Part shown: positions 1-63,983 of the stretch, piece by piece | Layout: each line of letters begins with the position of its first letter | Numbering within the stretch: position 1 is the first letter of the stretch | From: Venturia oleaginea | Taxonomy: Eukaryota > Ascomycota > Dothideomycetes > Venturiales > Venturiaceae | Direction: 5' to 3' | Assembly: GCA_013176395.1 (NCBI GenBank) | Contig: JABMLP010000004.1 | Span: 1,426,001 to 1,490,000 of the forward strand | DNA length: 64,000 bases | Notes under the pieces: model-generated | The model's database searches: none | What the model saw: the letters and a program-made list of their open reading frames with translations, nothing else | Told to the model about the DNA's origin: nothing | Made by a program: the position numbers and the translations under genes

Positions 1-1100
1 AAGGAATCACAAGCCATTGACATCCCTTTACGATCTGGGTTGCCTAGACCAAGAAGAGCACCGAAAAGAACCATGACGGTGACTGAAGCTGTCAGGGCCC
101 ATTTCCAGTGGCCAACTCTGGTTCCGTAGACCATGAGTAGCACTTCTCTAAACACAGGGCCGAGATTATGTTGGTAAGCTCATGATGCTATTTGACTCAG
201 AGTAGTGGTTCCCGTGATAACTAGAAACCGCAAGTTGAACGACGTTGATCATGTAAAACTTTGCTGTTAGCATGCCATTTTACGATATTATGCCTCCTCC
301 AGGATCTGCGAGAATCCACCATTGTTACAACAAAACCGACGACAAAGGAGGCCACAAACTCACGTACCATATCCTTGGTAAAGGCCGTAGGATCAGCGTA
401 GGCATGATTCTCAACTGTCAAAAATGCCTACTATGAGTGAGAGTACGTGGCTGTTTCGATTGCCGCAGTGCTCGTAAGAGGCCAAAACAATCAAAGTAAC
501 AAATTCCCCTTCTAGAACGCCGATTGCCAGGAAGCTTGAGGTTAGCAATGTTTGATAGAGTTGGAAAGTGAAGTGGAACTTTGAATTACTTGACGACAAA
601 ATCTCAGTATACACAATGTTGATCAAGATCAGTTTCGCTGCAAGGATGGACATGACCCCGCCAATGTGATCCGTCTCTTTGATAACGCGTTTGAAATCAA
701 GACCAAGAGGTTGCGCAGGCCGGTAGTATGAAAAGAAGCGGGCAAGTACGCTGATGCTGACGCCAATTGCTGGAGCATGAAATAGCCATCGCCAAGCTTC
801 ATCATTGGCAATGGCATATCTACCCACAATGCCATCGACTACGACCGCAAGCCATGTTTCCAATCCGGCAATGGTAATGGCAATTTGGCGTCACTTATGT
901 GGGAGAAGTTCTGGAAGAAAAGCTGCAAGCTGTGCATTTTCTAGCATCAAAGCCGATGGTTGCAAAGCCGGCAATCATGGTTGTATTGATCTTCGTCACT
1001 CCACACATGAAGTGGCAAACGAGGAGTAGGAAATTGCCTCCAATCAGGGACCAGCGACGTCCAAAGAGATCTGGAATTCTCATCAGTCAGCTACGCTTAT
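1..1100 (-). pseudogene. TRI12-type MFS transporter pseudogene, copy 1 (cut by window start)
   Basis: Reading the minus strand, degenerate frames carry pieces typical of the TRI12 (fungal trichothecene-efflux-type) MFS family: a DLFGRRWSLIGGN loop near 1080-1030, a WRWLF segment followed by a hydrophobic helix near 800-740, and a central FTKDM...GFVVTM region near 385-320. Frameshifts and stops separate them, so no full-length protein is possible. Known members export toxins, siderophores or drugs across the plasma membrane. The sequence is repeated at 32086 onward; the 3' end of the gene lies outside the window on this copy. Family assignment rests on recalled motif similarity. Confidence 0.65.
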
Positions 1101-1979
1101 AGACGTTTAACGGAATAAGTCTACAAGAATCCGCCCCACAGATCATGAACGCAATCGCAATGCAAACCGTGTACAAAGAAGTACATCAAACACCAGCCGT
1201 ATTGGGTTGCGACCATGTATATATCACAGCATCCAGAAGGGAACCTGAATATCCATGAGTTTCTGAAAGCAGGTAGTAGGATCAAGACGTAACGTACACC
1301 GTAAACTGGTATCTTACAAGAATGGGTACTACAATCCTCGTCTTGAAAGTGGCCATGTAGTCCTCATCATTGATGGGCTAGATGCTCTACCTACGCATCA
1401 GTATTAAAAACGCGGTGATTTCGCTGGTAAGGGAAGTTGTTAAGAATATAAGGGAGAATGTAAGGTGTGGCCATGCTCATCGCTGAAACCAATGAGCCGA
1501 TTGAGTTTGAAGTTGAGCGATACCTTAAGACGAGAAGGACGTTCTCCAAAGATATGGTCGCAGTTGTGTATCCATGCCAAGATTGTAAACCGTAGCGCTG
1601 TCTGGATCGTGTCAGTAACGTGAGGTTGCGACATATATTTGTAGATCAGCGCTCGATTCTGCAGTAGTCACGTAAATTGTGCGGCGTTCTGTTGTCACCC
1701 AGCGAAGGGCTAGATAGCGACGACCGTAACGAAGGCTTTGTCGGACAGCATAGAATTAAAGAAAAATTGACGAAACTGTTCACGCTTAGAGACAAAGACG
1801 GTCGTCGATATCGAAATCCGGATCCAGTAACTTTTGGGAATACCTTTTCGTTTAATACAGCTTCGTTAGACTTTAGAATCCTCTGCTATCCCGTTAAAAG
1901 CGTTTATTCATGGGGCATAGACAGATGTAGTACGGGTGCTTCTGTTGGGGAAGGCTAAGAGGAGGGGTCGATCATTTAC
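1101..1979. other. Non-coding stretch between MFS pseudogene and retrotransposon
   Basis: No ORF with recognisable content is present. The left part may hold more of the decayed MFS N-terminus. The segment is duplicated at 33186-34064. Confidence 0.5.
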
Positions 1980-2096
1980 TGCTAGTGTCTATCTGGTGGA
2001 GCAAGGGCCTCGTCCGACCAAGCGACAACAACAACATGGCGATCTCGCATATCGCACGACTTCTGAGCCCTCTGAGGCTCGTCTTGTATCTAGATT
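1980..2096 (+). repeat. Split direct repeat A1 (copy 1)
   Basis: A 117-bp sequence starting TGCTAGTGTC and ending TATCTAGATT, identical to A2 at 8504-8620. It marks the left terminus of the element. Confidence 0.9.
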
Positions 2097-2361
2097 GTTG
2101 TTGTAGGACTCGTCCTTCATCCCGATATTCTCCTTATCGTCCTACGAGTCTTTCCCGCCGCTGCGCGCGCCGCGCTTAGCCGTTCACCGCTTCTCGACAG
2201 ACTTTTCAAGTACACCGCTGGCCTCGACGACGTCTTGGGCATCGTTATATTGCACCAGCATCAGAAATCCCTTCCAAAGAGCTCCTTGGCATCTCTAGGG
2301 CTCTGTACTTATTAACAGAGCTGACCTGCTAACGATTTTAAATAGTTATACCGCTTTCTTT
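2097..2361 (+). promoter_or_regulatory. Leader of element copy 1 with a 3' splice signal
   Basis: This is the untranslated leader between A1 and the Gag ATG. TGCTAAC at 2327-2333 followed by TAG ending at 2345 looks like a fungal branch point plus acceptor, so a leader intron may be removed. The donor is not certain. A GC-rich palindromic stretch lies near 2160-2177. Confidence 0.4.
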
Positions 2362-3573
2362 ATGCCTCCGAAGAAGGATATCACCGCGTCGGTTCCTATC
2401 AACTTATCCCTACCACCGGGTCACTCTACTCGCTCCTCTCGTACCCGATCCCCCTCTATTGTCTTCGGGACCCAGAGGTCATCTTCACGGTCTCTTACAC
2501 CCATTGGCGGCGGGATGACACCTACTCAACCTCAGCCCACGTTAGCCCCGCCACGGGCACCGCCTCTAGCTCTGACCCTCGAACAGGTCGCGATCAACAA
2601 TGCCCAGGCCGCTGAGGCTCGCGCCGTAGAGGCTCACAGGCTAAGGATGGACCGCGAAAAGGAGGAGCACGACCTCCAGATGCAGGTCAAACGCGAAGAA
2701 GCGGCGGCGCGCCTTGCGAAAATTAGGGAGGGCTCTTTACTCGAACTACCGCATGGCACCAGTCGTCCGGGGGCGACTGAGCCGGATAACAGTACGGGTA
2801 AGTCCCTCGATAACCAGCTGGTTTCGACACTTCGTATGCGTTTCCCTGCCCTACCCATTCACCTTGCGGAGAGCGTCAAGAATGGCACTTTTGAGCCAAT
2901 AAACCTCGTACGTTTACGCTTGACGGACCCGGTACCATCTGCATCTCCGGGAGAAGATCGTTTCCGGTTCGACGTCTCTACTGGCACGGCGAATCTCGTC
3001 AAAATCAAAGCAACAGCATCGTACGAGGACTATCCAGCACCACGCTTCTGGCTCGAGGCATTCACCTACTACGTTAGCCTCCTCTATATTCTCTTCCCTA
3101 CTTTGAGCGCTGCAACGTACGAAGCCATCAATACCTTTCGCGCCAAGGCCGAGGCTTTGTGCCTACACTACGACTGGGCCTCCGTGCGCCTCTTGGTCTT
3201 CACATTCCACGCCGAAGTAATCCAGCGCGGTATTACGACGGCGAGCCACTGGAACCTCAGCTATGCCTTTCAGGATCGCTTCTGCAATCCACTTACGTCG
3301 AAGGCTCATCTCGAGGCTCAACAATTAATGGCAAAGCTTCAGTCGGCAGCTGCTCGTACAGCTTCGAAGAGCTCTGAGAAGCGAAAGCGCAGCGACTCGT
3401 CCCTCAAAAACGAGACCTGCCTTAGCTATAACAGAGGAGCATGTACATGGGGTGAGTCGTGCAAGCGCTCCCATGTCTGTACCACTTGCAAGCAAAACCA
3501 CCCCGCCACCGCTTGTCCGAAGAAGGCTTCAAGGCCTAAGGCGGAGACCGACCCTCTCAAGGTCGCCAAATAG
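2362..3573 (+). CDS. Gag-like protein of DIRS-type element, copy 1
   Basis: A 403-aa ORF starting at ATG 2362. It has a Ser/Thr/Pro-rich N-terminus, an Ala/Glu/Arg-rich helical segment around residues 75-120, and a C-terminal zinc region. The zinc region combines a CX7CX5CX3H finger (CLSYNRGAC...CKRSH, about residues 353-371) and a CX2CX3HX4C knuckle (CTTCKQNH). It presumably packages element RNA. It ends at TAG 3571-3573, followed in the same frame by CAG CCA and the RT domain, so it may also be made as a Gag-RT readthrough fusion. Copy 2 at 34447 encodes the same protein. Confidence 0.85.
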   Translation: MPPKKDITASVPINLSLPPGHSTRSSRTRSPSIVFGTQRSSSRSLTPIGGGMTPTQPQPTLAPPRAPPLALTLEQVAINNAQAAEARAVEAHRLRMDREKEEHDLQMQVKREEAAARLAKIREGSLLELPHGTSRPGATEPDNSTGKSLDNQLVSTLRMRFPALPIHLAESVKNGTFEPINLVRLRLTDPVPSASPGEDRFRFDVSTGTANLVKIKATASYEDYPAPRFWLEAFTYYVSLLYILFPTLSAATYEAINTFRAKAEALCLHYDWASVRLLVFTFHAEVIQRGITTASHWNLSYAFQDRFCNPLTSKAHLEAQQLMAKLQSAAARTASKSSEKRKRSDSSLKNETCLSYNRGACTWGESCKRSHVCTTCKQNHPATACPKKASRPKAETDPLKVAK

Positions 3574-5257
3574 CAGCCAAAGGACGAGTTCCGGTCGAAT
3601 ACGGAGCCCTTGTTTGCTGTATTCCAACCCGATGGCCCGCCGCTGCCTGAGAATAGGTCGCCTTTCAAGCCTCTTGGCTGGATAAGCCTCCTCTCAGGAT
3701 ATCCAGAGCGCACACTGGTGACTAACCTAGTTGGTATTCTCACGTACGGCGCCTCCATCGGTATCTGCGAGCCTCATACGATTCGCGTACGCGGCTTTTC
3801 GAACAACTACTTCTCCGACGAGGCGACCGTAGCCGAAGCTACGGGCTACGTTGCGAAGGAGCTGGCCGCCGGCCGATTGGCTATCTCTACAGACCCGGGC
3901 CTGTTTATCGCTCCTCTTGGGATGGTCCCAAAACAAGACGGAACCTTACGCCGGATCCACGACCTCTCTTGGCCGCCCCAAACTTCAGTCAACGACGCCA
4001 TTCCACGCGTGTTTGGCAAGCTACAGTACACCAGAGTCGACAGAATTGTTCAGCACGTCCTTCGTACAGGCCGGGGCTGTCTTCTAATGAAACGCGACAT
4101 TGCGCACGCTTTTCGCAACATCCCTGTGGATCTCATTTCGTCCCGGTATCTTGGGTTTTGCCTCAACGGCGTCAATTATCAAGAACTCTGCCTCCCTTTC
4201 GGTCTCAGGACTGCGCCATTTATCTTCAATCTCTTTGCGGAAGGTCTCCATTGGGCTCTCGACGAGCAGGCCGGCACGCGCAGTATCCCTACCGCGATCG
4301 AGCACTACCTTGATGATTTTATGTTTGTGTGTACGTCAGGAAATTTCGGACCGCGTTTCGGAACTCTGGATCAAGACCACCGATCGACTTGGGATTCCTC
4401 GCAAGGATGCCAAAGACGTGGTCGGCACGGCCGTCGAGATATTAGGTCTTCTGGTTGATACGGTACGCTTGGAACTGCGTCTCTCCGACGAGAAGAGAGA
4501 TTCTTTGATCCAGGCTATCCGTGATCACCTCTCCGAGACAAGGCCGCGGCTCCGGGATACGAAGTCCCTCGCCGGGCGGCTCAGTTGGGCCAGTGCCGTC
4601 ATCCGCCTTGGCCGGGTTTACACTCGATCGATCTGGGACTACCTGAGCGGAGCATACGGAGAAGTCAATCGGCACTTTCGCCGAGCCCTGACTAGCGGTG
4701 TACGAGACGACCTTCTCTGGTGGCTCCGTGCGCTCGAGCTAACCAACGGGGTCTACTTCTTCGATTATCGAAAGCGCCGTTGTTTCCACCTTTACACTGA
4801 TGCCTCCGGACAACAAAGCCTCGGCGGCTTCTTTTTCGAGTCCTCTGAGACCGATGTCTCTTGGGGGGATTACACCAATAGTATCGCAATCGAGCATGCT
4901 TTTATTGCTGAACCGTCCAATCGTTCGGCGTTTATCAACCCTAAGGAGATGGAGGCTGTTGCCGTCGCATTCCTCCGTTGGGGACCGTCTCTCTGGGCAC
5001 ATAATCGGGTTGTTATCCACTGTGACAACTCTACGGCCGTGGCCGGGTTGACGAAGGAGGCTGTTCGTGGTGAGAGCAACACCCATCTCCGCACTATTGT
5101 TACTCAGGCCGCTGCCTGCGATATTGTTATCGAAGCCCGCTGGCTTCCATCTACGGCTAACGGCCTGGCCGATGCCCTCTCTCGAGTCCAGTTTGATCGT
5201 ATCGCCTGGCTCTGCCCCCAATGGGGCTCACCGCTTTCGATCTCACAGTTCCGCTGA
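3574..5257 (+). pseudogene. RT-RNase H of DIRS-type element, copy 1, frameshifted
   Basis: The frame is continuous with Gag after its TAG. RT motifs are present: MVPKQDGTLRRIHDLS, MKRDIAHAFRNIP with the first catalytic Asp, GLRTAPF, and the YLDD box. At about 4336-4337 two bases (TC) are missing relative to copy 2. The frame then shifts, and the RNase H part (YTDASG, PKEMEAVAV, HCDNSTA, ANGLADALSR) is read in another frame through 5257. No ATG precedes the RT core in this frame, so normal expression would need readthrough of Gag. The 2-bp loss could be a base-calling error, since the repeat is otherwise almost identical to copy 2. Confidence 0.85.
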
Positions 5258-6860
5258 ACTATTGTTGAACCGTCCGATCGTTCGGCCTTTATTAACCCTA
5301 AAGAGATGGAGGCCGTTGCCGTTGCCGTTGCATTCCTCCGTTGGGGACCATCTCTATAGGCATATCCGGCCGACGCCCTCTCTCGAGTCTAGTTTTCGAT
5401 CGTATCGTCTAGCTGCCTCCGATGGGGCTCACCTTTTTCGATCTCAGTTCCGCTGAACTATTGGTGAACCGTCCGATCGTTCGGCGTTTATCAACCCTAA
5501 AGAGATGGAGGCCGTTGCCGTTGCCGTTGCATTCCTCCGTTGGGGACCATCTCTATAGGTACATCCGGCCGACGCCCTCTCTCGAGTCTAGTTTCGATCG
5601 TATCGTCTAGCTCTGCCTCCGATGAGGCTCACCGCTTTCGATCTTACAGTTCCGTTGAACTATTGGTGAATTGTCCGATCGTTCGGCGTTTATCAACCCT
5701 AAAGAGATGGAGGCCGTTGCCGTTGCCGTTGCATTCCTCCGTTGGGGACCATCTCTATAGGTACATCTGGCCGACGCCCTCGCGAGTCTAGTTTTCGATC
5801 GTATCGTCTAGCTCTGCCTCCGATGGGGCTCACCGCTTTCGATCTTATAGTTCCGTTGAACTATTGGTGAACCGTCCGATCGTTCGGCGTTTATCAACCC
5901 TAAAGAGATGGAGGCCGTTGCCGTTGCCGTTGCATTCCTCCGTTGGGGACCATCTCTATAGGTACATCCGGCCGACGCCGTCTCTCGAGTCTAGTTTCGA
6001 TCGTATCGTCTGGCTCTGCCTCCGATGGGGCTCACCGTTTTCGATCTCACAGTTCCGCTGAACTATTGGTGAACCGTCCGATCGTTCGGCGTTTATCAAC
6101 CCTAAAGAGATGGAGGCCGTTGCCGTTGCCGTTGCATTCCTCCGTTGGGGACCATCTCTATAGGTACATCTGGCCGACGCCCTCGCGAGTCTAGTTTCGA
6201 TCGTATCGTCTAGCTCTGCCTCCGATGGGGCTCACCGTTTTCGATCTCACAGTTCCGCTGAACTATTGGTGAACCGTCCGATCGTTCGGCGTTTATCAAC
6301 CCTAAAGAGATGGAGGCCGTTGCCGTTGCCGTTGCATTCCTCCGTTGGGGACCATCTCTATAGGTACATCCGGCCGACGCCCTCTCTCGAGTCTAGTTTC
6401 GATCGTATCGTCTAGCTCTGCCTCCGATGGGGCTCACCGTTTTCGATCTCACAGTTCCGCTGAACTATTGGTGAACCGTCCGATCGTTCGGCGTTTATCA
6501 ACCCTAAAGAGATGGAGGCCGTTGCCGTTGCCGTTGCATTCCTCCGTTGGGGACCATCTCTATAGGTACATCTGGCCGACGCTCTCGCGAGTCTAGTTTC
6601 GATCGTATCGTCTGGCTCTGCCTCCGATGGGGCTCACCGCTTTCGATCTTACAGTTCCGTTGAACTATTGTTGAGCCGTCCGATCGTTCGGCGTTTATCA
6701 ACCCTAAGAGATGGAGGCCGTTGCCGTTGCCGTTGCATTCCTCCGTTGGGGACCATCTCTATAGGTACATCTGGCCGACGCCCTCGCGAGTCTAGTTTCG
6801 ATCGTATCGTCTGGCTCTGCCTCCGATGGGGCTCTCCGCTATCGTCCTTACAGTTCCGTT
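5258..6860 (+). repeat. Tandem array of eight ~200-bp units derived from the RNase H 3' end
   Basis: The marker TGTCCGATCG/CGTCCGATCG recurs at 5271, 5470, 5672, 5873, 6075, 6275, 6477 and 6677, a spacing of 199-202 bp. Each unit joins a copy of about 4908-5010 (RNase H Glu-motif region) to a copy of about 5163-5266 (end of the RT ORF), with the segment between deleted. Each unit also carries an expanded GTTGCC run and a TAG, so the array is not an extension of the protein. It is conserved with eight units in copy 2. Confidence 0.9.
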
Positions 6861-7021
6861 GAATTCTTGCTATCCCGGGGATTGCAACTTTGGGCTTGGC
6901 GCGCTGTTCGTGGCAGCCGTTCTTTGCAGGCTCATCGGCTTAAGCGCCATGCTACTCTGCTATCGCCGACGTTCGGCAGATACCCTGGTCGGACTCCGGT
7001 ACTCGTACAAAGCTTGCTAAC

Positions 7022-8110
7022 GTGCTTCGTCCAGCACCTAGCCTCGAGTATACTTCCTACGATAGCGAGCTCCTCCCTACAGTTCATAGGTTCTTCCTCC
7101 GTACCCTTCGCGAGCGAAACCTTGGCCTCTCTGATGAGTATATTACCCTCTTATGGTACGGCTTGGCCCAGAACACGCGCAACACGTACGGCGCGGGTAT
7201 CAAGAGCTGGGAGAGGTTCTGTACGCTGGAGGGCTGTGTAGACTATCCCGCAGAACCCCTCAATCTCGGCGAATGGATGGCAAGGCGTGTCATTACTGGA
7301 GGAGCGGAAGGCATCATTTCCGGCGCTACAGCGGCCAGCTACCTCTCCGCAGTACGTTCAAAGCATATCGACCTGGGATACCCTATCAGCGCGTTCGCTG
7401 ATCCGATGCTCCTACGCGCAAGACAGGGGGCTCTCAACCTCAGGCCTCCGAAGCGCAAGAATAGGCTCCCTATTACTGTACGCATCCTTGAGGGACTGAC
7501 GGCTGTGGAACCGACCACCGGAGCCGACCTCAATCTCGACACTCTCTTCAAGGTGGCCTATGCTGGTTTCTTCCGCCTTGGCGAGCTGGCTTACACTAGA
7601 AGAGATAGGGAGCACCCGCTGTTCTCCTATACTCATGTCTTACGGAGCGATATCGCCTTCCATCGTCATACGCCTAGCCATCAGCCTTACGGGGTCTCTA
7701 TTTTCCTGAAGCGTAGCAAGACCGATTACGCTAATCAGGGCGTTCCCATCTCCATCGCCGCAACGGGAAAACCTACCTGTGCAGTAGCCGCCCTGGTAAG
7801 ACTTTTCAGGCACGATCCGAAGCCGCTTTCGGCGCCTCTCTTCGACATCGGCAAAGGGCATTGTTCGGCCGCTGCTGTACACATGCAACTACGCCGACGC
7901 CTCCTCGCTACTGGTATTATCTCCTCGCTGGACGACAAGTCCTACACAGGCCATTCCTTCCGCAGGGGTGCTGCTACGGACGCAGCTGCGAAGGGAGTGC
8001 CTGAGCTCGAGCTTAAGGCAGCGGGTCGATGGTCCTCCGAAGCTTTCCTCCGTTACATATCCCGTTCGTTCGAACAGCAGCTTGCAATCAGTCGCCTGTT
8101 CCTGATATAA
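7022..8110 (+). CDS. Tyrosine recombinase of DIRS-type element, copy 1
   Basis: An open frame of 362 codons from 7022 (GTG) to TAA at 8110. The catalytic set of the tyrosine recombinase family is visible: Arg in GFFRLGEL (about residue 185), Lys in LKRSKTD, HSFRR (His/Arg, about residue 311), Trp in GRWSS and the nucleophile Tyr in LRYIS (about residue 344). The enzyme would integrate the circular DNA copy. No ATG occurs before about residue 85. A branch-like TGCTAAC (7015-7021) and CCAG ending at 7034 suggest that the ORF is joined to an upstream exon by splicing; the exact start is therefore unknown. Copy 2 is identical at protein level. Confidence 0.85.
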   Translation: MLRPAPSLEYTSYDSELLPTVHRFFLRTLRERNLGLSDEYITLLWYGLAQNTRNTYGAGIKSWERFCTLEGCVDYPAEPLNLGEWMARRVITGGAEGIISGATAASYLSAVRSKHIDLGYPISAFADPMLLRARQGALNLRPPKRKNRLPITVRILEGLTAVEPTTGADLNLDTLFKVAYAGFFRLGELAYTRRDREHPLFSYTHVLRSDIAFHRHTPSHQPYGVSIFLKRSKTDYANQGVPISIAATGKPTCAVAALVRLFRHDPKPLSAPLFDIGKGHCSAAAVHMQLRRRLLATGIISSLDDKSYTGHSFRRGAATDAAAKGVPELELKAAGRWSSEAFLRYISRSFEQQLAISRLFLI

Positions 8111-8267
8111 CACCGTTGTGTTCACCCGATCGCCAAAAGCTATACTCTGCTTCGCTACACCGCTGTGTTTCTCGCCTCTACCCTGGACCGAGTATGTCGT
8201 ACAGACTCGCCTCCTATCCCACCTCGTTTCCTTCTTGTTTGTCTGGGCCGCAGGCGCTTCGCTTCTG

Positions 8268-8503
8268 GGCAGTAGGGCACCTCATTTGCCTTCAATCGAG
8301 AAGCAATTGAGCCGTGGGCATGCCATCCTGAGACCTACCCCGTGGCTGAAGCCCCGTGTGGCTGAGGAAGCCTGTATGGCTCAGGGCTCAATGGCTTGCT
8401 CGCTCACAATGAAAATTCACGTGCCCTGGCCTGCGTCCGGCCAATCAACAGATAAAACGTGCCAGATGACCGTGATCCGAAGGCGTGGCGAGATGGAGAT
8501 AGA
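8268..8503 (+). repeat. Split direct repeat B1 (copy 1)
   Basis: A 236-bp sequence from GGCAGTAGGG to GGAGATAGA, repeated as B2 at 8662-8897 (offset 394). Its right end touches A2 directly. Confidence 0.9.
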
Positions 8504-8620
8504 TGCTAGTGTCTATCTGGTGGAGCAAGGGCCTCGTCCGACCAAGCGACAACAACAACATGGCGATCTCGCATATCGCACGACTTCTGAGCCCTCTGAG
8601 GCTCGTCTTGTATCTAGATT
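8504..8620 (+). repeat. Split direct repeat A2 (copy 1)
   Basis: Second copy of the 117-bp A repeat, identical to 1980-2096 and directly abutting B1. The B1-A2 junction corresponds to the joined ends expected of the circular intermediate. Confidence 0.9.
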
Positions 8621-8661
8621 CCCACCCGCCTACACCCTGTAGTCAACGTCTTATACGTGCA

Positions 8662-8897
8662 GGCAGTAGGGCACCTCATTTGCCTTCAATCGAGAAGCAA
8701 TTGAGCCGTGGGCATGCCATCCTGAGACCTACCCCGTGGCTGAAGCCCCGTGTGGCTGAGGAAGCCTGTATGGCTCAGGGCTCAATGGCTTGCTCGCTCA
8801 CAATGAAAATTCACGTGCCCTGGCCTGCGTCCGGCCAATCAACAGATAAAACGTGCCAGATGACCGTGATCCGAAGGCGTGGCGAGATGGAGATAGA
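8662..8897 (+). repeat. Split direct repeat B2, right terminus (copy 1)
   Basis: Second copy of B, 41 bp after A2. It is the right terminus of the element and the last base shared with the second 8.9-kb duplicate. Confidence 0.9.
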
Positions 8898-9914
8898 GCG
8901 CCGCTAAACCCTTCACCCGCGTGCCTGGAAACCCCTAGGGAGTTTTGCCAGAAAGTTAGCGTGATCGATTTGATTTGTGAATTGCGTCATCGGGCCTCAA
9001 GTACCTGAAGAAAGTCAGGAAACGACGAATACCAAATCCTAACAATCGGATAGACGTCTCTCGTATATATGGAGATGAGCACACTCCATTTCGAAAGAAA
9101 GGAAGAAAGGAAGAAAGAAAGAAATAGCGAGAAAAGATTAAAAGTAGCGAGAAAAGATCAATCGGAAGACCGAAAGCTCGACTCGTTTCGCTTCTCCTTC
9201 CATCGGATCGGACTTACTAAAGACATAAGTAGATCGAACACTGTTGGTATCACTTATGGTGAGAAAGAAATGACGCGCGCGTATGGCATGAAGGAAGTAA
9301 CAGATTATGAGTTGGTGGCTTGTATTGTGTTGTTTTTAAGTATCTTACATTGATGACACGGATCAGACCCTCCGGTTATCCTATGGCTGTGCAGCCGACT
9401 TCGTACTATGGTTAGATACAGGCCCGTAGGCAGTAGTTGCGGAGTGGCTACTAGGGGCTATGATTGGTCAAAACCTAGCACAGCCACACCCCATCAACAG
9501 ATAAAAAGTCAAACATCACCCCATCGAAAAGGAAGCAACCACGAAAATCGAACGTCTGATTTATGAGAGAAATTTTATCTCACAAAAGAAAGTCCAGCTA
9601 CGCCAAGGAATCACGTCATATAAACAAACACCAATTAAACATATCCAGATGTGCTTGTTGAAGGAAGAATCATCCATTCCTCTAACTTGACATCCCACAT
9701 CATCCCATCCAATGACCCCCAATTATCCAAACCCAAAATCAGTTAAATCCAAATCATTAATCGCTAAACCGCTCCTTCAATGTCGGGTATAAGTCCAAAC
9801 CATTTTCCAACCCCTAAAACCATCGCAAATCCAAACTCCGCATGAAAACACACCACAACCACCCAATCTAGCGTCTGTCAACCATCCTCCTCTCCAGATC
9901 CCCTGCTCCAAACC
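8898..9914. other. Intergenic region with GAAA-type microsatellite
   Basis: No gene is seen. A purine-rich GAAA/GGAA microsatellite lies at about 9091-9128. The right part should hold the 3' UTR of the minus-strand RhoGAP gene. Confidence 0.6.
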
Positions 9915-31880: not shown

Positions 31881-33185
31881 CTACAAGAATATTAGCTCAA
31901 TCTTGACAGGAAACTGCCAATCAAGAAATTCACGGCTGGTGCTGTAAAGGTAGATCGCAATAGCGTCGCCAGCAAACCTCGACACTCCAGCAAGACGGCC
32001 AGAGATACCAAGCTCAACTTGAGGCACTCCGCATTGACTGAAGGCGATACTCAATATCTGGGCCCAATCAAAGCCCACCTGTGACAAGGAATCACAAGCC
32101 ATTGACATCCCTTTACGATCTGGGTTGCCTAGACCAAGAAGAGCACCGAAAAGAACCATGACGGTGACTGAAGCTGTCAGGGCCCATTTCCAGTGGCCAA
32201 CTCTGGTTCCGTAGACCATGAGTAGCACTTCTCTAAACACAGGGCCGAGATTATGTTGGTAAGCTCATGATGCTATTTGACTCAGAGTAGTGGTTCCCGT
32301 GATAACTAGAAACCGCAAGTTGAACGACGTTGATCATGTAAAACTTTGCTGTTAGCATGCCATTTTACGATATTATGCCTCCTCCAGGATCTGCGAGAAT
32401 CCACCATTGTTACAACAAAACCGACGACAAAGGAGGCCACAAACTCACGTACCATATCCTTGGTAAAGGCCGTAGGATCAGCGTAGGCATGATTCTCAAC
32501 TGTCAAAAATGCCTACTATGAGTGAGAGTACGTGGCTGTTTCGATTGCCGCAGTGCTCGTAAGAGGCCAAAACAATCAAAGTAACAAATTCCCCTTCTAG
32601 AACGCCGATTGCCAGGAAGCTTGAGGTTAGCAATGTTTGATAGAGTTGGAAAGTGAAGTGGAACTTTGAATTACTTGACGACAAAATCTCAGTATACACA
32701 ATGTTGATCAAGATCAGTTTCGCTGCAAGGATGGACATGACCCCGCCAATGTGATCCGTCTCTTTGATAACGCGTTTGAAATCAAGACCAAGAGGTTGCG
32801 CAGGCCGGTAGTATGAAAAGAAGCGGGCAAGTACGCTGATGCTGACGCCAATTGCTGGAGCATGAAATAGCCATCGCCAAGCTTCATCATTGGCAATGGC
32901 ATATCTACCCACAATGCCATCGACTACGACCGCAAGCCATGTTTCCAATCCGGCAATGGTAATGGCAATTTGGCGTCACTTATGTGGGAGAAGTTCTGGA
33001 AGAAAAGCTGCAAGCTGTGCATTTTCTAGCATCAAAGCCGATGGTTGCAAAGCCGGCAATCATGGTTGTATTGATCTTCGTCACTCCACACATGAAGTGG
33101 CAAACGAGGAGTAGGAAATTGCCTCCAATCAGGGACCAGCGACGTCCAAAGAGATCTGGAATTCTCATCAGTCAGCTACGCTTAT
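31881..33185 (-). pseudogene. TRI12-type MFS transporter pseudogene, copy 2
   Basis: Same decayed gene as at 1-1100, here with its 3' part included. Minus-strand pieces: DLFGRRWSLIGGN (about 33150), WRWLF...LGLDFKRVIKETDHIGG (about 32870-32770), FTKDM...GFVVTM (about 32470-32400), then a good C-terminal part at 32240-31920 containing TRVGHWKWALTASVTVM and GVPQVELGISGRLAG, the last transmembrane region of TRI12-type exporters. Stops and frame changes separate the pieces. The left duplication limit cannot be found because copy 1 starts at the window edge. Confidence 0.7.
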
Positions 33186-34064
33186 AGACGTTTAACGGAA
33201 TAAGTCTACAAGAATCCGCCCCACAGATCATGAACGCAATCGCAATGCAAACCGTGTACAAAGAAGTACATCAAACACCAGCCGTATTGGGTTGCGACCA
33301 TGTATATATCACAGCATCCAGAAGGGAACCTGAATATCCATGAGTTTCTGAAAGCAGGTAGTAGGATCAAGACGTAACGTACACCGTAAACTGGTATCTT
33401 ACAAGAATGGGTACTACAATCCTCGTCTTGAAAGTGGCCATGTAGTCCTCATCATTGATGGGCTAGATGCTCTACCTACGCATCAGTATTAAAAACGCGG
33501 TGATTTCGCTGGTAAGGGAAGTTGTTAAGAATATAAGGGAGAATGTAAGGTGTGGCCATGCTCATCGCTGAAACCAATGAGCCGATTGAGTTTGAAGTTG
33601 AGCGATACCTTAAGACGAGAAGGACGTTCTCCAAAGATATGGTCGCAGTTGTGTATCCATGCCAAGATTGTAAACCGTAGCGCTGTCTGGATCGTGTCAG
33701 TAACGTGAGGTTGCGACATATATTTGTAGATCAGCGCTCGATTCTGCAGTAGTCACGTAAATTGTGCGGCGTTCTGTTGTCACCCAGCGAAGGGCTAGAT
33801 AGCGACGACCGTAACGAAGGCTTTGTCGGACAGCATAGAATTAAAGAAAAATTGACGAAACTGTTCACGCTTAGAGACAAAGACGGTCGTCGATATCGAA
33901 ATCCGGATCCAGTAACTTTTGGGAATACCTTTTCGTTTAATACAGCTTCGTTAGACTTTAGAATCCTCTGCTATCCCGTTAAAAGCGTTTATTCATGGGG
34001 CATAGACAGATGTAGTACGGGTGCTTCTGTTGGGGAAGGCTAAGAGGAGGGGTCGATCATTTAC
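33186..34064. other. Non-coding stretch between MFS pseudogene and element copy 2
   Basis: Duplicate of 1101-1979. No recognised gene. Confidence 0.5.
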
Positions 34065-34181
34065 TGCTAGTGTCTATCTGGTGGAGCAAGGGCCTCGTCC
34101 GACCAAGCGACAACAACAACATGGCGATCTCGCATATCGCACGACTTCTGAGCCCTCTGAGGCTCGTCTTGTATCTAGATT
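34065..34181 (+). repeat. Split direct repeat A1 (copy 2)
   Basis: The 117-bp A repeat at the left terminus, identical to A2 at 40592-40708. Confidence 0.9.
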
Positions 34182-34446
34182 GTTGTTGTAGGACTCGTCC
34201 TTCATCCCGATATTCTCCTTATCGTCCTACGAGTCTTTCCCGCCGCTGCGCGCGCCGCGCTTAGCCGTTCACCGCTTCTCGACAGACTTTTCAAGTACAC
34301 CGCTGGCCTCGACGACGTCTTGGGCATCGTTATATTGCACCAGCATCAGAAATCCCTTCCAAAGAGCTCCTTGGCATCTCTAGGGCTCTGTACTTATTAA
34401 CAGAGCTGACCTGCTAACGATTTTAAATAGTTATACCGCTTTCTTT

Positions 34447-35658
34447 ATGCCTCCGAAGAAGGATATCACCGCGTCGGTTCCTATCAACTTATCCCTACCA
34501 CCGGGTCACTCTACTCGCTCCTCTCGTACCCGATCCCCCTCTATTGTCTTCGGGACCCAGAGGTCATCTTCACGGTCTCTTACACCCATTGGCGGCGGGA
34601 TGACACCTACTCAACCTCAGCCCACGTTAGCCCCGCCACGGGCACCGCCTCTAGCTCTGACCCTCGAACAGGTCGCGATCAACAATGCCCAGGCCGCTGA
34701 GGCTCGCGCCGTAGAGGCTCACAGGCTAAGGATGGACCGCGAAAAGGAGGAGCACGACCTCCAGATGCAGGTCAAACGCGAAGAAGCGGCGGCGCGCCTT
34801 GCGAAAATTAGGGAGGGCTCTTTACTCGAACTACCGCATGGCACCAGTCGTCCGGGGGCGACTGAGCCGGATAACAGTACGGGTAAGTCCCTCGATAACC
34901 AGCTGGTTTCGACACTTCGTATGCGTTTCCCTGCCCTACCCATTCACCTTGCGGAGAGCGTCAAGAATGGCACTTTTGAGCCAATAAACCTCGTACGTTT
35001 ACGCTTGACGGACCCGGTACCATCTGCATCTCCGGGAGAAGATCGTTTCCGGTTCGACGTCTCTACTGGCACGGCGAATCTCGTCAAAATCAAAGCAACA
35101 GCATCGTACGAGGACTATCCAGCACCACGCTTCTGGCTCGAGGCATTCACCTACTACGTTAGCCTCCTCTATATTCTCTTCCCTACTTTGAGCGCTGCAA
35201 CGTACGAAGCCATCAATACCTTTCGCGCCAAGGCCGAGGCTTTGTGCCTACACTACGACTGGGCCTCCGTGCGCCTCTTGGTCTTCACATTCCACGCCGA
35301 AGTAATCCAGCGCGGTATTACGACGGCGAGCCACTGGAACCTCAGCTATGCCTTTCAGGATCGCTTCTGCAATCCACTTACGTCGAAGGCTCATCTCGAG
35401 GCTCAACAATTAATGGCAAAGCTTCAGTCGGCAGCTGCTCGTACAGCTTCGAAGAGCTCTGAGAAGCGAAAGCGCAGCGACTCGTCCCTCAAAAACGAGA
35501 CCTGCCTTAGCTATAACAGAGGAGCATGTACATGGGGTGAGTCGTGCAAGCGCTCCCATGTCTGTACCACTTGCAAGCAAAACCACCCCGCCACCGCTTG
35601 TCCGAAGAAGGCTTCAAGGCCTAAGGCGGAGACCGACCCTCTCAAGGTCGCCAAATAG
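34447..35658 (+). CDS. Gag-like protein of DIRS-type element, copy 2
   Basis: A 403-aa ORF identical to that of copy 1, with a CCCH-like finger and a CCHC knuckle at the C-terminus. It ends with TAG 35656-35658 followed by CAG CCA in the same frame as the RT ORF. This is the CAR-YYA context known from tobamovirus-type readthrough. Confidence 0.87.
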   Translation: MPPKKDITASVPINLSLPPGHSTRSSRTRSPSIVFGTQRSSSRSLTPIGGGMTPTQPQPTLAPPRAPPLALTLEQVAINNAQAAEARAVEAHRLRMDREKEEHDLQMQVKREEAAARLAKIREGSLLELPHGTSRPGATEPDNSTGKSLDNQLVSTLRMRFPALPIHLAESVKNGTFEPINLVRLRLTDPVPSASPGEDRFRFDVSTGTANLVKIKATASYEDYPAPRFWLEAFTYYVSLLYILFPTLSAATYEAINTFRAKAEALCLHYDWASVRLLVFTFHAEVIQRGITTASHWNLSYAFQDRFCNPLTSKAHLEAQQLMAKLQSAAARTASKSSEKRKRSDSSLKNETCLSYNRGACTWGESCKRSHVCTTCKQNHPATACPKKASRPKAETDPLKVAK

Positions 35659-37344
35659 CAGCCAAAGGACGAGTTCCGGTCGAATACGGAGCCCTTGTTT
35701 GCTGTATTCCAACCCGATGGCCCGCCGCTGCCTGAGAATAGGTCGCCTTTCAAGCCTCTTGGCTGGATAAGCCTCCTCTCAGGATATCCAGAGCGCACAC
35801 TGGTGACTAACCTAGTTGGTATTCTCACGTACGGCGCCTCCATCGGTATCTGCGAGCCTCATACGATTCGCGTACGCGGCTTTTCGAACAACTACTTCTC
35901 CGACGAGGCGACCGTAGCCGAAGCTACGGGCTACGTTGCGAAGGAGCTGGCCGCCGGCCGATTGGCTATCTCTACAGACCCGGGCCTGTTTATCGCTCCT
36001 CTTGGGATGGTCCCAAAACAAGACGGAACCTTACGCCGGATCCACGACCTCTCTTGGCCGCCCCAAACTTCAGTCAACGACGCCATTCCACGCGTGTTTG
36101 GCAAGCTACAGTACACCAGAGTCGACAGAATTGTTCAGCACGTCCTTCGTACAGGCCGGGGCTGTCTTCTAATGAAACGCGACATTGCGCACGCTTTTCG
36201 CAACATCCCTGTGGATCTCATTTCGTCCCGGTATCTTGGGTTTTGCCTCAACGGCGTCAATTATCAAGAACTCTGCCTCCCTTTCGGTCTCAGGACTGCG
36301 CCATTTATCTTCAATCTCTTTGCGGAAGGTCTCCATTGGGCTCTCGACGAGCAGGCCGGCACGCGCAGTATCCCTACCGCGATCGAGCACTACCTTGATG
36401 ATTTTATGTTTGTGTGTACGTCTCAGGAAATTTCGGACCGCGTTTCGGAACTCTGGATCAAGACCACCGATCGACTTGGGATTCCTCGCAAGGATGCCAA
36501 AGACGTGGTCGGCACGGCCGTCGAGATATTAGGTCTTCTGGTTGATACGGTACGCTTGGAACTGCGTCTCTCCGACGAGAAGAGAGATTCTTTGATCCAG
36601 GCTATCCGTGATCACCTCTCCGAGACAAGGCCGCGGCTCCGGGATACGAAGTCCCTCGCCGGGCGGCTCAGTTGGGCCAGTGCCGTCATCCGCCTTGGCC
36701 GGGTTTACACTCGATCGATCTGGGACTACCTGAGCGGAGCATACGGAGAAGTCAATCGGCACTTTCGCCGAGCCCTGACTAGCGGTGTACGAGACGACCT
36801 TCTCTGGTGGCTCCGTGCGCTCGAGCTAACCAACGGGGTCTACTTCTTCGATTATCGAAAGCGCCGTTGTTTCCACCTTTACACTGATGCCTCCGGACAA
36901 CAAAGCCTCGGCGGCTTCTTTTTCGAGTCCTCTGAGACCGATGTCTCTTGGGGGGATTACACCAATAGTATCGCAATCGAGCATGCTTTTATTGCTGAAC
37001 CGTCCAATCGTTCGGCGTTTATCAACCCTAAGGAGATGGAGGCTGTTGCCGTCGCATTCCTCCGTTGGGGACCGTCTCTCTGGGCACATAATCGGGTTGT
37101 TATCCACTGTGACAACTCTACGGCCGTGGCCGGGTTGACGAAGGAGGCTGTTCGTGGTGAGAGCAACACCCATCTCCGCACTATTGTTACTCAGGCCGCT
37201 GCCTGCGATATTGTTATCGAAGCCCGCTGGCTTCCATCTACGGCTAACGGCCTGGCCGATGCCCTCTCTCGAGTCCAGTTTGATCGTATCGCCTGGCTCT
37301 GCCCCCAATGGGGCTCACCGCTTTCGATCTCACAGTTCCGCTGA
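35659..37344 (+). CDS. Reverse transcriptase-RNase H of DIRS-type element, copy 2 (readthrough domain)
   Basis: An open frame of about 560 codons directly after the Gag TAG, with no usable ATG before the RT core, so it is probably made as a Gag-RT fusion. RT motifs in order: DGTLRRIHDLS, RDIAHAF (catalytic Asp), GLRTAPFIFN and YLDDFMFV (catalytic Asp pair). The RNase H Asp-Glu-Asp-Asp set is visible in YTDASG, PKEMEAVAV, HCDNSTA and ADALSR. The RT copies element RNA into DNA. Unlike copy 1, TC is present near 36421 and the frame is continuous. No DNA methyltransferase domain follows. Confidence 0.88.
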   Translation, partial: QPKDEFRSNTEPLFAVFQPDGPPLPENRSPFKPLGWISLLSGYPERTLVTNLVGILTYGASIGICEPHTIRVRGFSNNYFSDEATVAEATGYVAKELAAGRLAISTDPGLFIAPLGMVPKQDGTLRRIHDLSWPPQTSVNDAIPRVFGKLQYTRVDRIVQHVLRTGRGCLLMKRDIAHAFRNIPVDLISSRYLGFCLNGVNYQELCLPFGLRTAPFIFNLFAEGLHWALDEQAGTRSIPTAIEHYLDDFMFVCTSQEISDRVSELWIKTTDRLGIPRKDAKDVVGTAVEILGLLVDTVRLELRLSDEKRDSLIQAIRDHLSETRPRLRDTKSLAGRLSWASAVIRLGRVYTRSIWDYLSGAYGEVNRHFRRALTSGVRDDLLWWLRALELTNGVYFFDYRKRRCFHLYTDASGQQSLGGFFFESSETDVSWGDYTNSIAIEHAFIAEPSNRSAFINPKEMEAVAVAFLRWGPSLWAHNRVVIHCDNSTAVAGLTKEAVRGESNTHLRTIVTQAAACDIVIEARWLPSTANGLADALSRVQFDRIAWLCPQWGSPLSISQFR

Positions 37345-38949
37345 ACTATTGTTGAACCGTCCGATCGTTCGGCCTTTATTAACCCTAAAGAGATGGAGGC
37401 CGTTGCCGTTGCCGTTGCATTCCTCCGTTGGGGACCATCTCTATAGGCATATCCGGCCGACGCCCTCTCTCGAGTCTAGTTTTCGATCGTATCGTCTAGC
37501 TGCCTCCGATGGGGCTCACCTTTTTTTCGATCTCAGTTCCGCTGAACTATTGGTGAACCGTCCGATCGTTCGGCGTTTATCAACCCTAAAGAGATGGAGG
37601 CCGTTGCCGTTGCCGTTGCATTCCTCCGTTGGGGACCATCTCTATAGGTACATCCGGCCGACGCCCTCTCTCGAGTCTAGTTTCGATCGTATCGTCTAGC
37701 TCTGCCTCCGATGAGGCTCACCGCTTTCGATCTTACAGTTCCGTTGAACTATTGGTGAATTGTCCGATCGTTCGGCGTTTATCAACCCTAAAGAGATGGA
37801 GGCCGTTGCCGTTGCCGTTGCATTCCTCCGTTGGGGACCATCTCTATAGGTACATCTGGCCGACGCCCTCGCGAGTCTAGTTTTCGATCGTATCGTCTAG
37901 CTCTGCCTCCGATGGGGCTCACCGCTTTCGATCTTATAGTTCCGTTGAACTATTGGTGAACCGTCCGATCGTTCGGCGTTTATCAACCCTAAAGAGATGG
38001 AGGCCGTTGCCGTTGCCGTTGCATTCCTCCGTTGGGGACCATCTCTATAGGTACATCCGGCCGACGCCGTCTCTCGAGTCTAGTTTCGATCGTATCGTCT
38101 AGGCTCTGCCTCCGATGGGGCTCACCGTTTTCGATCTCACAGTTCCGCTGAACTATTGGTGAACCGTCCGATCGTTCGGCGTTTATCAACCCTAAAGAGA
38201 TGGAGGCCGTTGCCGTTGCCGTTGCATTCCTCCGTTGGGGACCATCTCTATAGGTACATCTGGCCGACGCCCTCGCGAGTCTAGTTTCGATCGTATCGTC
38301 TAGCTCTGCCTCCGATGGGGCTCACCGTTTTCGATCTCACAGTTCCGCTGAACTATTGGTGAACCGTCCGATCGTTCGGCGTTTATCAACCCTAAAGAGA
38401 TGGAGGCCGTTGCCGTTGCCGTTGCATTCCTCCGTTGGGGACCATCTCTATAGGTACATCGGCCGACGCCCTCTCTCGAGTCTAGTTTCGATCGTATCGT
38501 CTAGCTCTGCCTCCGATGGGGCTCACCGTTTTCGATCTCACAGTTCCGCTGAACTATTGGTGAACCGTCCGATCGTTCGGCGTTTATCAACCCTAAAGAG
38601 ATGGAGGCCGTTGCCGTTGCCGTTGCATTCCTCCGTTGGGGACCATCTCTATAGGTACATCTGGCCGACGCTCTCGCGAGTCTAGTTTCGATCGTATCGT
38701 CTGGCTCTGCCTCCGATGGGGCTCACCGCTTTCGATCTTACAGTTCCGTTGAACTATTGTTGAGCCGTCCGATCGTTCGGCGTTTATCAACCCTAAGAGA
38801 TGGAGGCCGTTGCCGTTGCCGTTGCATTCCTCCGTTGGGGACCATCTCTATAGGTACATCTGGCCGACGCCCTCGCGAGTCTAGTTTCGATCGTATCGTC
38901 TGGCTCTGCCTCCGATGGGGCTCTCCGCTATCGTCCTTACAGTTCCGTT
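37345..38949 (+). repeat. Tandem array of eight ~200-bp units (copy 2)
   Basis: Same array as 5258-6860 with the same unit number. It differs by a T-run length near 37525 and single-base indels near 38101 and 38460. Confidence 0.9.
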
Positions 38950-39110
38950 GAATTCTTGCTATCCCGGGGATTGCAACTTTGGGCTTGGCGCGCTGTTCGT
39001 GGCAGCCGTTCTTTGCAGGCTCATCGGCTTAAGCGCCATGCTACTCTGCTATCGCCGACGTTCGGCAGATACCCTGGTCGGACTCCGGTACTCGTACAAA
39101 GCTTGCTAAC

Positions 39111-40199
39111 GTGCTTCGTCCAGCACCTAGCCTCGAGTATACTTCCTACGATAGCGAGCTCCTCCCTACAGTTCATAGGTTCTTCCTCCGTACCCTTCGC
39201 GAGCGAAACCTTGGCCTCTCTGATGAGTATATTACCCTCTTATGGTACGGCTTGGCCCAGAACACGCGCAACACGTACGGCGCGGGTATCAAGAGCTGGG
39301 AGAGGTTCTGTACGCTGGAGGGCTGTGTAGACTATCCCGCAGAACCCCTCAATCTCGGCGAATGGATGGCAAGGCGTGTCATTACTGGAGGAGCGGAAGG
39401 CATCATTTCCGGCGCTACAGCGGCCAGCTACCTCTCCGCAGTACGTTCAAAGCATATCGACCTGGGATACCCTATCAGCGCGTTCGCTGATCCGATGCTC
39501 CTACGCGCAAGACAGGGGGCTCTCAACCTCAGGCCTCCGAAGCGCAAGAATAGGCTCCCTATTACTGTACGCATCCTTGAGGGACTGACGGCTGTGGAAC
39601 CGACCACCGGAGCCGACCTCAATCTCGACACTCTCTTCAAGGTGGCCTATGCTGGTTTCTTCCGCCTTGGCGAGCTGGCTTACACTAGAAGAGATAGGGA
39701 GCACCCGCTGTTCTCCTATACTCATGTCTTACGGAGCGATATCGCCTTCCATCGTCATACGCCTAGCCATCAGCCTTACGGGGTCTCTATTTTCCTGAAG
39801 CGTAGCAAGACCGATTACGCTAATCAGGGCGTTCCCATCTCCATCGCCGCAACGGGAAAACCTACCTGTGCAGTAGCCGCCCTGGTAAGACTTTTCAGGC
39901 ACGATCCGAAGCCGCTTTCGGCGCCTCTCTTCGACATCGGCAAAGGGCATTGTTCGGCCGCTGCTGTACACATGCAACTACGCCGACGCCTCCTCGCTAC
40001 TGGTATTATCTCCTCGCTGGACGACAAGTCCTACACAGGCCATTCCTTCCGCAGGGGTGCTGCTACGGACGCAGCTGCGAAGGGAGTGCCTGAGCTCGAG
40101 CTTAAGGCAGCGGGTCGATGGTCCTCCGAAGCTTTCCTCCGTTACATATCCCGTTCGTTCGAACAGCAGCTTGCAATCAGTCGCCTGTTCCTGATATAA
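39111..40199 (+). CDS. Tyrosine recombinase of DIRS-type element, copy 2
   Basis: A 362-codon frame identical to that of copy 1, with the RFFRLGEL-type Arg, Lys, HSFRR, Trp and LRYIS Tyr catalytic positions. It begins with GTG and has no early ATG. TGCTAAC at 39104-39110 and AG at 39122-39123 may be a 3' splice site feeding this exon. Confidence 0.85.
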   Translation: MLRPAPSLEYTSYDSELLPTVHRFFLRTLRERNLGLSDEYITLLWYGLAQNTRNTYGAGIKSWERFCTLEGCVDYPAEPLNLGEWMARRVITGGAEGIISGATAASYLSAVRSKHIDLGYPISAFADPMLLRARQGALNLRPPKRKNRLPITVRILEGLTAVEPTTGADLNLDTLFKVAYAGFFRLGELAYTRRDREHPLFSYTHVLRSDIAFHRHTPSHQPYGVSIFLKRSKTDYANQGVPISIAATGKPTCAVAALVRLFRHDPKPLSAPLFDIGKGHCSAAAVHMQLRRRLLATGIISSLDDKSYTGHSFRRGAATDAAAKGVPELELKAAGRWSSEAFLRYISRSFEQQLAISRLFLI

Positions 40200-40356
40200 C
40201 ACCGTTGTGTTCACCCGATCGCCAAAAGCTATACTCTGCTTCGCTACACCGCTGTGTTTCTCGCCTCTACCCTGGACCGAGTATGTCGTACAGACTCGCC
40301 TCCTATCCCACCTCGTTTCCTTCTTGTTTGTCTGGGCCGCAGGCGCTTCGCTTCTG

Positions 40357-40591
40357 GGCAGTAGGGCACCTCATTTGCCTTCAATCGAGAAGCAATTGAG
40401 CCGTGGGCATGCCATCCTGAGACCTACCCCGTGGCTGAAGCCCCGTGTGGCTGAGGAAGCCTGTATGGCTCAGGGCTCAATGGCTTGCTCGCTCACAATG
40501 AAAATTCACGTGCCCTGGCCTGCGCCGGCCAATCAACAGATAAAACGTGCCAGATGACCGTGATCCGAAGGCGTGGCGAGATGGAGATAGA
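40357..40591 (+). repeat. Split direct repeat B1 (copy 2)
   Basis: 235 bp, one base shorter than B2 (missing T in GCGTCCGG near 40526), directly abutting A2. Confidence 0.9.
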
Positions 40592-40708
40592 TGCTAGTGT
40601 CTATCTGGTGGAGCAAGGGCCTCGTCCGACCAAGCGACAACAACAACATGGCGATCTCGCATATCGCACGACTTCTGAGCCCTCTGAGGCTCGTCTTGTA
40701 TCTAGATT
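40592..40708 (+). repeat. Split direct repeat A2 (copy 2)
   Basis: 117 bp, identical to A1 at 34065-34181. Confidence 0.9.
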
Positions 40709-40749
40709 CCCACCCGCCTACACCCTGTAGTCAACGTCTTATACGTGCA

Positions 40750-40985
40750 GGCAGTAGGGCACCTCATTTGCCTTCAATCGAGAAGCAATTGAGCCGTGGG
40801 CATGCCATCCTGAGACCTACCCCGTGGCTGAAGCCCCGTGTGGCTGAGGAAGCCTGTATGGCTCAGGGCTCAATGGCTTGCTCGCTCACAATGAAAATTC
40901 ACGTGCCCTGGCCTGCGTCCGGCCAATCAACAGATAAAACGTGCCAGATGACCGTGATCCGAAGGCGTGGCGAGATGGAGATAGA
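40750..40985 (+). repeat. Split direct repeat B2, right terminus (copy 2)
   Basis: 236 bp, identical to B2 of copy 1. Homology between the two genomic copies ends here. Confidence 0.9.
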
Positions 40986-58405: not shown

Positions 58406-58581
58406 TGTTATGGGCATGGCCCATGGTTGGTATAGGCTAAGAGCCTAAGCCTGATTGAGCCTAGTATAGAGAAAGAACCTCATTGAGGTTCTCTGTTTGT
58501 AGATACCTTCACTCTTTAACTGAATCTAAACAATCTTTGGCTACGAGTATGCTGCGTCTTTCCAGCTACCGTCCCGTAATA
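58406..58581 (+). repeat. 5' LTR (176 bp)
   Basis: Begins TGTTATGGGC and ends CCCGTAATA; identical to the 3' LTR. It contains the short palindrome ATGGGCATGGCCCAT and the hairpin GAACCTCATTGAGGTTC. It ends in TA rather than the usual CA. Confidence 0.95.
58518..58528 (+). promoter_or_regulatory. Putative self-primer / start of R region
   Basis: AACTGAATCTA inside the LTR is the exact reverse complement of the 11 bases after the LTR (58582-58592). In Tf1 the first bases of the transcript are the primer, so transcription probably starts at about 58518. Confidence 0.7.
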
Positions 58582-58592
58582 TAGATTCAGTT
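58582..58592 (+). promoter_or_regulatory. Primer-binding site, self-priming type
   Basis: TAGATTCAGTT directly abuts the 5' LTR and pairs perfectly with 58518-58528. A tRNA match was not evident, but none could be searched. Confidence 0.75.
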
Positions 58593-58615
58593 CTTTACAA
58601 ACCTAGGTGTACTTG

Positions 58616-59710: not shown

Positions 59711-59718
59711 CTACCCTT

Positions 59719-63795: not shown

Positions 63796-63804
63796 GGAGG
63801 GGGG
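63794..63804 (+). promoter_or_regulatory. Polypurine tract
   Basis: AAGGAGGGGGG, three bases before the 3' LTR, is the likely plus-strand primer site. It overlaps the pol stop codon. Confidence 0.75.
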
Positions 63805-63807
63805 TAA

Positions 63808-63983
63808 TGTTATGGGCATGGCCCATGGTTGGTATAGGCTAAGAGCCTAAGCCTGATTGAGCCTAGTATAGAGAAAGAACCTCATTGAGGTTCTCTGTTT
63901 GTAGATACCTTCACTCTTTAACTGAATCTAAACAATCTTTGGCTACGAGTATGCTGCGTCTTTCCAGCTACCGTCCCGTAATA
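63808..63983 (+). repeat. 3' LTR (176 bp)
   Basis: Identical to 58406-58581, followed by the CTAAG target duplication at 63984-63988. Confidence 0.95.

Follow-up and report, generated by a model that had tools for sequence, protein, structure and literature searches.

A tyrosine recombinase (YR) retrotransposon of Venturia oleaginea encodes Gag and reverse transcriptase (RT) in one reading frame with a single UAG between them, and readthrough of this UAG to yield a Gag-RT fusion is probably the best explanation of the arrangement. The element is present twice on the forward strand of the window, by which we mean the whole 64,000-nucleotide stretch analysed (positions 1426001–1490000 of its contig, in a 46-Mb assembly of 61 contigs). 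In a stop-to-stop open reading frame (ORF) map, the Gag and RT frames abut in both copies, in the same frame and separated by one TAG. In copy 1, the gag stop-to-stop ORF (2299–3573) abuts an RT ORF (3574–4458), with the TAG at 3571–3573 and the hexamer CAG CCA, which fits CAR-YYA, at 3574–3579; in copy 2, the gag ORF (34384–35658) abuts an RT ORF (35659–37344), and TAG CAG CCA occupies 35656–35664. Measured from its first ATG to the TAG, the copy 1 gag spans 2362–3573, and the gag ORF of copy 2 spans 34447–35658. Near the Gag C-terminus lies a CCCH-type zinc finger (3412–3477 in copy 1; the Pfam match is under the cut-off), and more Cys and His residues stand between this finger and the TAG.

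An earlier note on this DNA had described TAG-CAG-CCA as splitting Gag and RT within one frame, and this is what is seen at 3571–3579 and 35656–35664. It had also described an open frame leading into RT in both copies. In copy 2 this frame is intact, the RT-RNase H ORF encoding 561 aa and matching RVT_1 (E=1.1e-11); in copy 1 a 2-bp length difference breaks the RT-RNase H region (3574–5257) into ORFs 3574–4458 and 4091–5257. Its further statement that no ATG precedes the RT core holds in family A, as we term this element and its close copies: the first Met of the copy 2 RT frame is residue 117, within the conserved RT motif PLGMVPK. The motif TAGCARYYA itself has four matches in the window, where 3.06 would be expected (sd 1.61; 35 of 100 shuffles reach four), and, being at chance frequency, proves nothing on its own; it is of note only for its position. 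The window has 19 ORFs that reach 250 codons; six of them stop at TAG, two of these six being the gag copies and one the gag of a long terminal repeat (LTR) element.

In its split repeats, domains and gene order, the element fits a Ngaro-like YR retrotransposon, a class assigned here on these characters. Copy 1 has split direct repeats A1 (1980–2096), B1 (8268–8503), A2 (8504–8620) and B2 (8662–8897); copy 2 has A1 at 34065–34181 and the B1-A2-B2 block at 40357–40985, all on the forward strand. This is the order A1-ORFs-B1-A2-B2 of Ngaro anatomy, which is described in passages of PMC8547959 and PMC3266345. The copy 2 RT-RNase H ORF gave a weak RT_RNaseH match (0.047, under the cut-off), and a domain search of this ORF found no match to a methyltransferase domain, the feature sought for a DIRS1-like element. 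Across 1980–8897, 12 inverted pairs (16–21 nt, 76–83%) were found, none of them placed at both ends as terminal inverted repeats would be. The label 'DIRS-type' given previously is apt if it denotes no more than membership of the order DIRS; the split repeats, the absence of inverted repeats at the termini and the succession of genes are those of a Ngaro-like element. The putative tyrosine recombinase ORF lies at 6944–8110 in copy 1, as placed by the ORF map, and at 39033–40199 in copy 2, whose 388-aa product supplied the domain matches, all of them weak (Phage_integrase, E=0.28; SAM-like, 0.066; Cre, 0.015); HxxR and a C-terminal Tyr were seen by eye. The copy 2 recombinase ORF has no Met ahead of residue 112, which itself falls inside the N-terminal domain match (72–139), and because of this the recombinase, too, may depend on splicing or recoding. 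Tandem repeats of ~200 bp, which by eye resemble the 3' end of RNase H, separate RT from recombinase (5247–6816 in copy 1; the same repeats at 37334–38905 in copy 2), and offsets in the alignments suggest that genome copies differ in how many of these repeats they have.

A search of the genome DNA with a 701-base query gave at least 40 matches, at least 24 of them near full-length and at least 16 covering the last 262 bases only. We read 20 of the 24 near-full-length matches listed, and all 20 carry TAGCAGCCA, with TAG CAG CCA fitting UAG CAR YYA in every one. Since none of these copies shows more than 17 substitutions relative to copy 2 (range 0–17, or 0–0.6%, in up to 2983 nt compared), their agreement at the TAG carries almost no weight. 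The substitutions number 61 in total, 32 of which are C>T or G>A. All but one of the 20 copies abut a flank at their 5' end (L014 is truncated there), and the TAG-bearing copies have 15 distinct 5' flanks (14 by script, L027 by eye); family A appears to have dispersed recently, TAG included. The two window copies (labelled L012 and L013) are one insertion duplicated, as positions 1–300 are identical to 32086–32385 and their 5' flanks match. The previous appeal to both copies is thus correct in that the sequence is present in each, but the two are not independent.

Several further features of these copies were observed. A segment of ~32 kb containing the element and its flanks (window 1–9500 and 32086–41600) apparently occurs in at least four like-oriented copies along the contig, with element copies at contig positions 1365205, 1397243, 1429300 and 1461385, a spacing of 32.04–32.09 kb. 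The 2-bp difference that breaks the RT frame (window ~4345) is common to 13 of the 20 family A copies (L009–L011, L013–L017, L019–L021, L024 and L026) from about nine flank groups, alongside copies with an open frame, as if the broken-RT variant had been mobilised in trans or spread via gene conversion. An internally deleted derivative without the TAG and without the RT N-terminus was read at two loci (L029 and L030); 32 places among the matches listed have the same match pattern, with an open frame of 509–510 aa. Finally, in nine of the 20 copies (L009, L010, L015, L018, L019, L023, L025, L027 and L028), the main alignment stops at the end of B1, without A2-B2, among listed hits of 400 bp or more; perhaps these arose when B1 recombined with B2.

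With RT relatives as queries, two divergent families, B and C, came to light in the same assembly. Junctions were read at seven of the 10 places listed for family B (L031, L033, L034, L035, L039, L042 and L043) and at all six listed for family C (L032, L036, L037, L038, L040 and L041), and in all 13 a TAG stands in the RT frame directly after the Gag zinc fingers. The gag genes of the three families are homologous, with identities of 27% (A–B) and 41% (B–C). In each of the 33 loci whose junction was read (20 from A, 7 from B and 6 from C), the stop is TAG and the next base is C. The hexamer that follows is not conserved. Family B has AAG or AGG and then TAG CCA TCA CGG in six of seven loci, with CTA TCA CGG after the stop in the seventh (L031), and family C has AAA TAG CTC TCT CGT in six of six. 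The check proposed earlier, an alignment of homologues for a conserved CAR-YYA at the Gag/RT boundary, thus came out negative, with CAGCCA in family A replaced by CCATCA or CTATCA in B and CTCTCT in C. What the families have in common is UAG-C plus the frame, not the CAR-YYA hexamer. Loci differ on average by 1.2% within family B and 4.2% within family C; with so few differences, and only the 61 substitutions in family A, conservation within families was set aside as evidence. In several B and C loci gag is decayed, and three of the six C loci have an extra in-frame stop in the RT stretch. The comparison between families indicates that the Gag-TAG-RT layout is real and older than family A. All three families belong to one genome, and theirs may be a shared ancestral TAG; the junction DNA contexts come from this one genome because scans of viral-contig and genome-contig DNA collections found no RT relatives.

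Turning to the codons after the TAG, we compared one sequence per family: copy 2 for A, L034 for B and L041 for C. In frame 0, pN/pS was 0.41/0.87 for A–B (57 codons), 0.41/0.71 for A–C (125 codons, a stretch extending beyond the first Met of A) and 0.24/0.71 for B–C (74 codons). Synonymous differences between families are thus saturated (pS 0.71–0.87), with pN at 0.24–0.41, and in the two other frames this contrast is lost. The stretch after the TAG therefore appears to evolve as a frame-0 protein, largely ahead of any Met. No in-frame Met occurs within 65 codons after the TAG in any of 14 sequences (copy 2 of A, seven B and six C). In family B, there is none in 100–137 codons at all seven loci; in family C, the first is at codon 66 (L037), 83 (L032, and L038, where it is beyond a stop) or 213 (L041, beyond a stop), with none in the stretch examined of L036 and L040. 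A conserved RT motif, SPxPF...W, lies upstream of the first in-frame Met. Leu-Ser-Arg follows straight after the TAG in L031 of family B and in all six C loci, with three synonymous differences; at the remaining six B loci the residues are Pro-Ser-Arg, which makes this argument depend on the single B locus. The junction thus shows the features expected in the layout of a readthrough-type Gag-Pol: a shared frame, a single stop and no AUG for Pol.

A search of protein collections for RT relatives, which returned proteins up to ~980 aa only, gave 120 proteins, whose named sources include Penicillium, Aspergillus, Fusarium and Pseudocercospora. The motif R[PS]N[TSDI] was found in the first 330 residues of 51 of the 120, and in 44 of these 51 it is within 110 residues of the start. 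A zinc-finger pattern was found in just one (P0071), the model of which lacks the RT N-terminus, and similar zinc-finger remnants were seen by eye in P0082 and P0092. This scarcity of zinc fingers would fit a stop or a shift between Gag and RT in these relatives as well. Residues 1–480 of the read-through Gag-RT gave no protein match among the 7994 candidates with the most shared words, to which scoring was confined. Two gag relatives terminate at the residue just before the TAG position. One is 96% identical to the family B gag across 69% of that gag, the other 70% identical across 39%; the 96%-identical protein may stem from a very close relative. The UAG shared by the three families also suggests that gene prediction programs may place spurious introns at Gag/RT junctions of this kind.

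Signals in the RNA around the stop were sought as well. A common structure 3' of the stop was not found in 12 tests with a model that excludes pseudoknots; the best z values were -2.86 (A), -2.19 (B) and -1.01 (C). An Rfam search of 3300–4300 gave no match up to E=1. UAG-CUC-UCU, the family C context, is not known as an efficient readthrough motif. The window also contains a Gypsy-type LTR retrotransposon (58406–63983) with identical 176-bp repeats, in which gag (58607–59710) and pol (59674–63795) overlap and pol is in the -1 frame; a simple search for an X XXY YYZ motif at 59600–59712 found none.

We propose the following reading of the junction. Gag and RT-RNase H would lie on one mRNA in one frame. 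Most ribosomes would terminate at the UAG that follows the zinc-finger region, yielding Gag, and a minority would insert an amino acid at this UAG, the next base being C, and continue into a Gag-RT fusion. That readthrough occurs, at what rate, and that UAG-C rather than CAR-YYA is the shared signal, we infer from the DNA. The earlier proposal of Gag-RT by programmed readthrough is thus retained in substance, supported by the one frame, the single UAG, the lack of an AUG ahead of the conserved RT N-terminus in family A, the recurrence of this layout in families B and C and the coding-type evolution beyond the stop, but without the tobamovirus hexamer as a conserved signal.

The main rival to readthrough is splicing, in which an intron, constant or alternative, would delete the TAG and bring the RT frame into continuity with Gag or with a leader located upstream. 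We consider it unlikely overall, although for family C it is a live rival. Introns were scanned for in A, then in A with four B and two C loci, and then more widely in A with seven B and six C loci; some weight was moved from readthrough to splicing because the widest scan showed a candidate acceptor in family C. There, CTAAC stands 10 nt ahead of the TAG end in five of six loci, making the TAG itself a good candidate acceptor, with in-frame donors GTAATC (a 174-nt intron) or GTAATA; alternatively, a GCAAGT donor could pair with a CAG 31 nt past the TAG (117 nt). However, use of the TAG as acceptor would cost the product its zinc fingers, and use of the CAG further on would place the Leu-Ser-Arg codons within the intron. 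Family A has an in-frame GTGAGT donor at 3452 and an ACTAAC-CTAG acceptor at 3730, but this intron would remove the conserved RT N-terminus, and no CTRAY branch site accompanies the candidates in copy 2 that keep it (donor GTGCGC, GTAATC or GTCTGT, acceptor TAG or CAG). The same is true of the candidates in the seven family B loci (GTGAGA to the TAG or a later CAG; GTATCA in L033), and the further weak B donors from a narrower scan likewise lack such a site. No intron common to the three families emerged from the scans. Penicillium and Fusarium gene models (P0015, P0071, P0082 and P0092) look to skip the zinc-finger and stop region, but any such model is forced to get round a stop codon and does not amount to evidence from RNA. 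A TAG-removing intron, named in the earlier note as a refutation of readthrough, thus has no good candidate in A or B but does have a candidate acceptor in five of six C loci.

Two other explanations are less probable still. Separate production of RT, through a non-AUG start, reinitiation after the Gag stop or a transcript from an internal promoter, seems improbable: precedents exist in the minor promoter within the Tca2 gag-pol junction (in the available part of PMC2194720) and in the reinitiation after Gag in victoriviruses (likewise from part of PMC3542737), but none of the 14 sequences offers an early in-frame Met, the codons right after the stop look coding in the comparison of L031 with family C, and separate translation would make the shared Gag/RT frame unnecessary. 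The least credible reading, and one already disfavoured, is that the TAG arose through decay, such as a C-to-T change of CAG by repeat-induced point mutation, and was then spread by duplication and amplification. CAG to TAG is a single step, C>T and G>A make up 32 of the 61 differences of the A copies from copy 2, and the window copies are near-identical duplicates; against this, two divergent families have a TAG at the corresponding position, two gag relatives end there, and the TAG-bearing A copies combine many different 5' flanks with few mutations.

If readthrough does take place, it would be a recoding strategy undescribed for tyrosine-recombinase retrotransposons in the open-licence PMC papers searched, and the families would supply natural sequence contexts for UAG readthrough from filamentous fungi, including two that misfit the textbook motif. 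A broader proposal, for and against which we see the case as evenly balanced, is that a fungal Ngaro-like clade has long made RT solely via readthrough of a UAG-C located directly behind the zinc fingers of Gag, with selection maintaining both stop and frame but no particular hexamer 3' of the stop, and with no protease of the element's own to cleave the fusion. To our knowledge, control of the Gag to RT ratio in YR retrotransposons has been little studied, and the UAG common to three divergent families offers a clear and cheap test case for it.

The junction can be compared with several known systems. In the available passages on Ngaro-like retrotransposons of fungi (PMC3783388) and Cafeteria (PMC8547959), the elements have the A1-ORFs-B1-A2-B2 repeats found here, together with Gag, an RT-RNase H without a methyltransferase match and a separate YR ORF; however, those passages describe neither an in-frame Gag/RT stop nor readthrough, whereas an in-frame UAG is present here. 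A search of open-licence PMC papers found no report of readthrough at a Ngaro or DIRS Gag-RT junction. Parts of PMC3542737, PMC4132726 and PMC10085805 deal with type I readthrough at UAG-CAR-YYA, with CARNBA as the form in yeast, and with the influence of a C directly after the stop. The tobamovirus type I signal (passages of PMC3542737 and PMC4132726) is fitted by the UAG CAG CCA of family A but not by B or C. Gammaretroviruses, as outlined in a portion of PMC3542737, likewise have a UAG upstream of the RT-bearing part, but theirs is UAG-G with a pseudoknot, whereas here the next base is C and no shared post-stop structure was found with a model that excludes pseudoknots. A further likeness is to fungal LTR elements, in which excerpts report an in-frame UGA at the gag-pol junction: Tj1/Tosmo/Tcry1 of fission yeast (PMC10085805), VdLTRE5 of Verticillium (PMC3441728) and Tca2 of Candida (PMC2194720). 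Like the element described here, these have a single in-frame Gag/Pol stop; the fission yeast elements have C after it, as here, and VdLTRE5 and Tca2 are said, in the excerpts, to be without CARYYA, as are families B and C. The Tca2 gag-pol junction alone directed no readthrough in S. cerevisiae according to the available part of PMC2194720. These LTR elements differ in using UGA, whereas the stop here is UAG and the host element is of the YR type. The novelty lies in the type of element, readthrough as a mechanism being already known in LTR elements.
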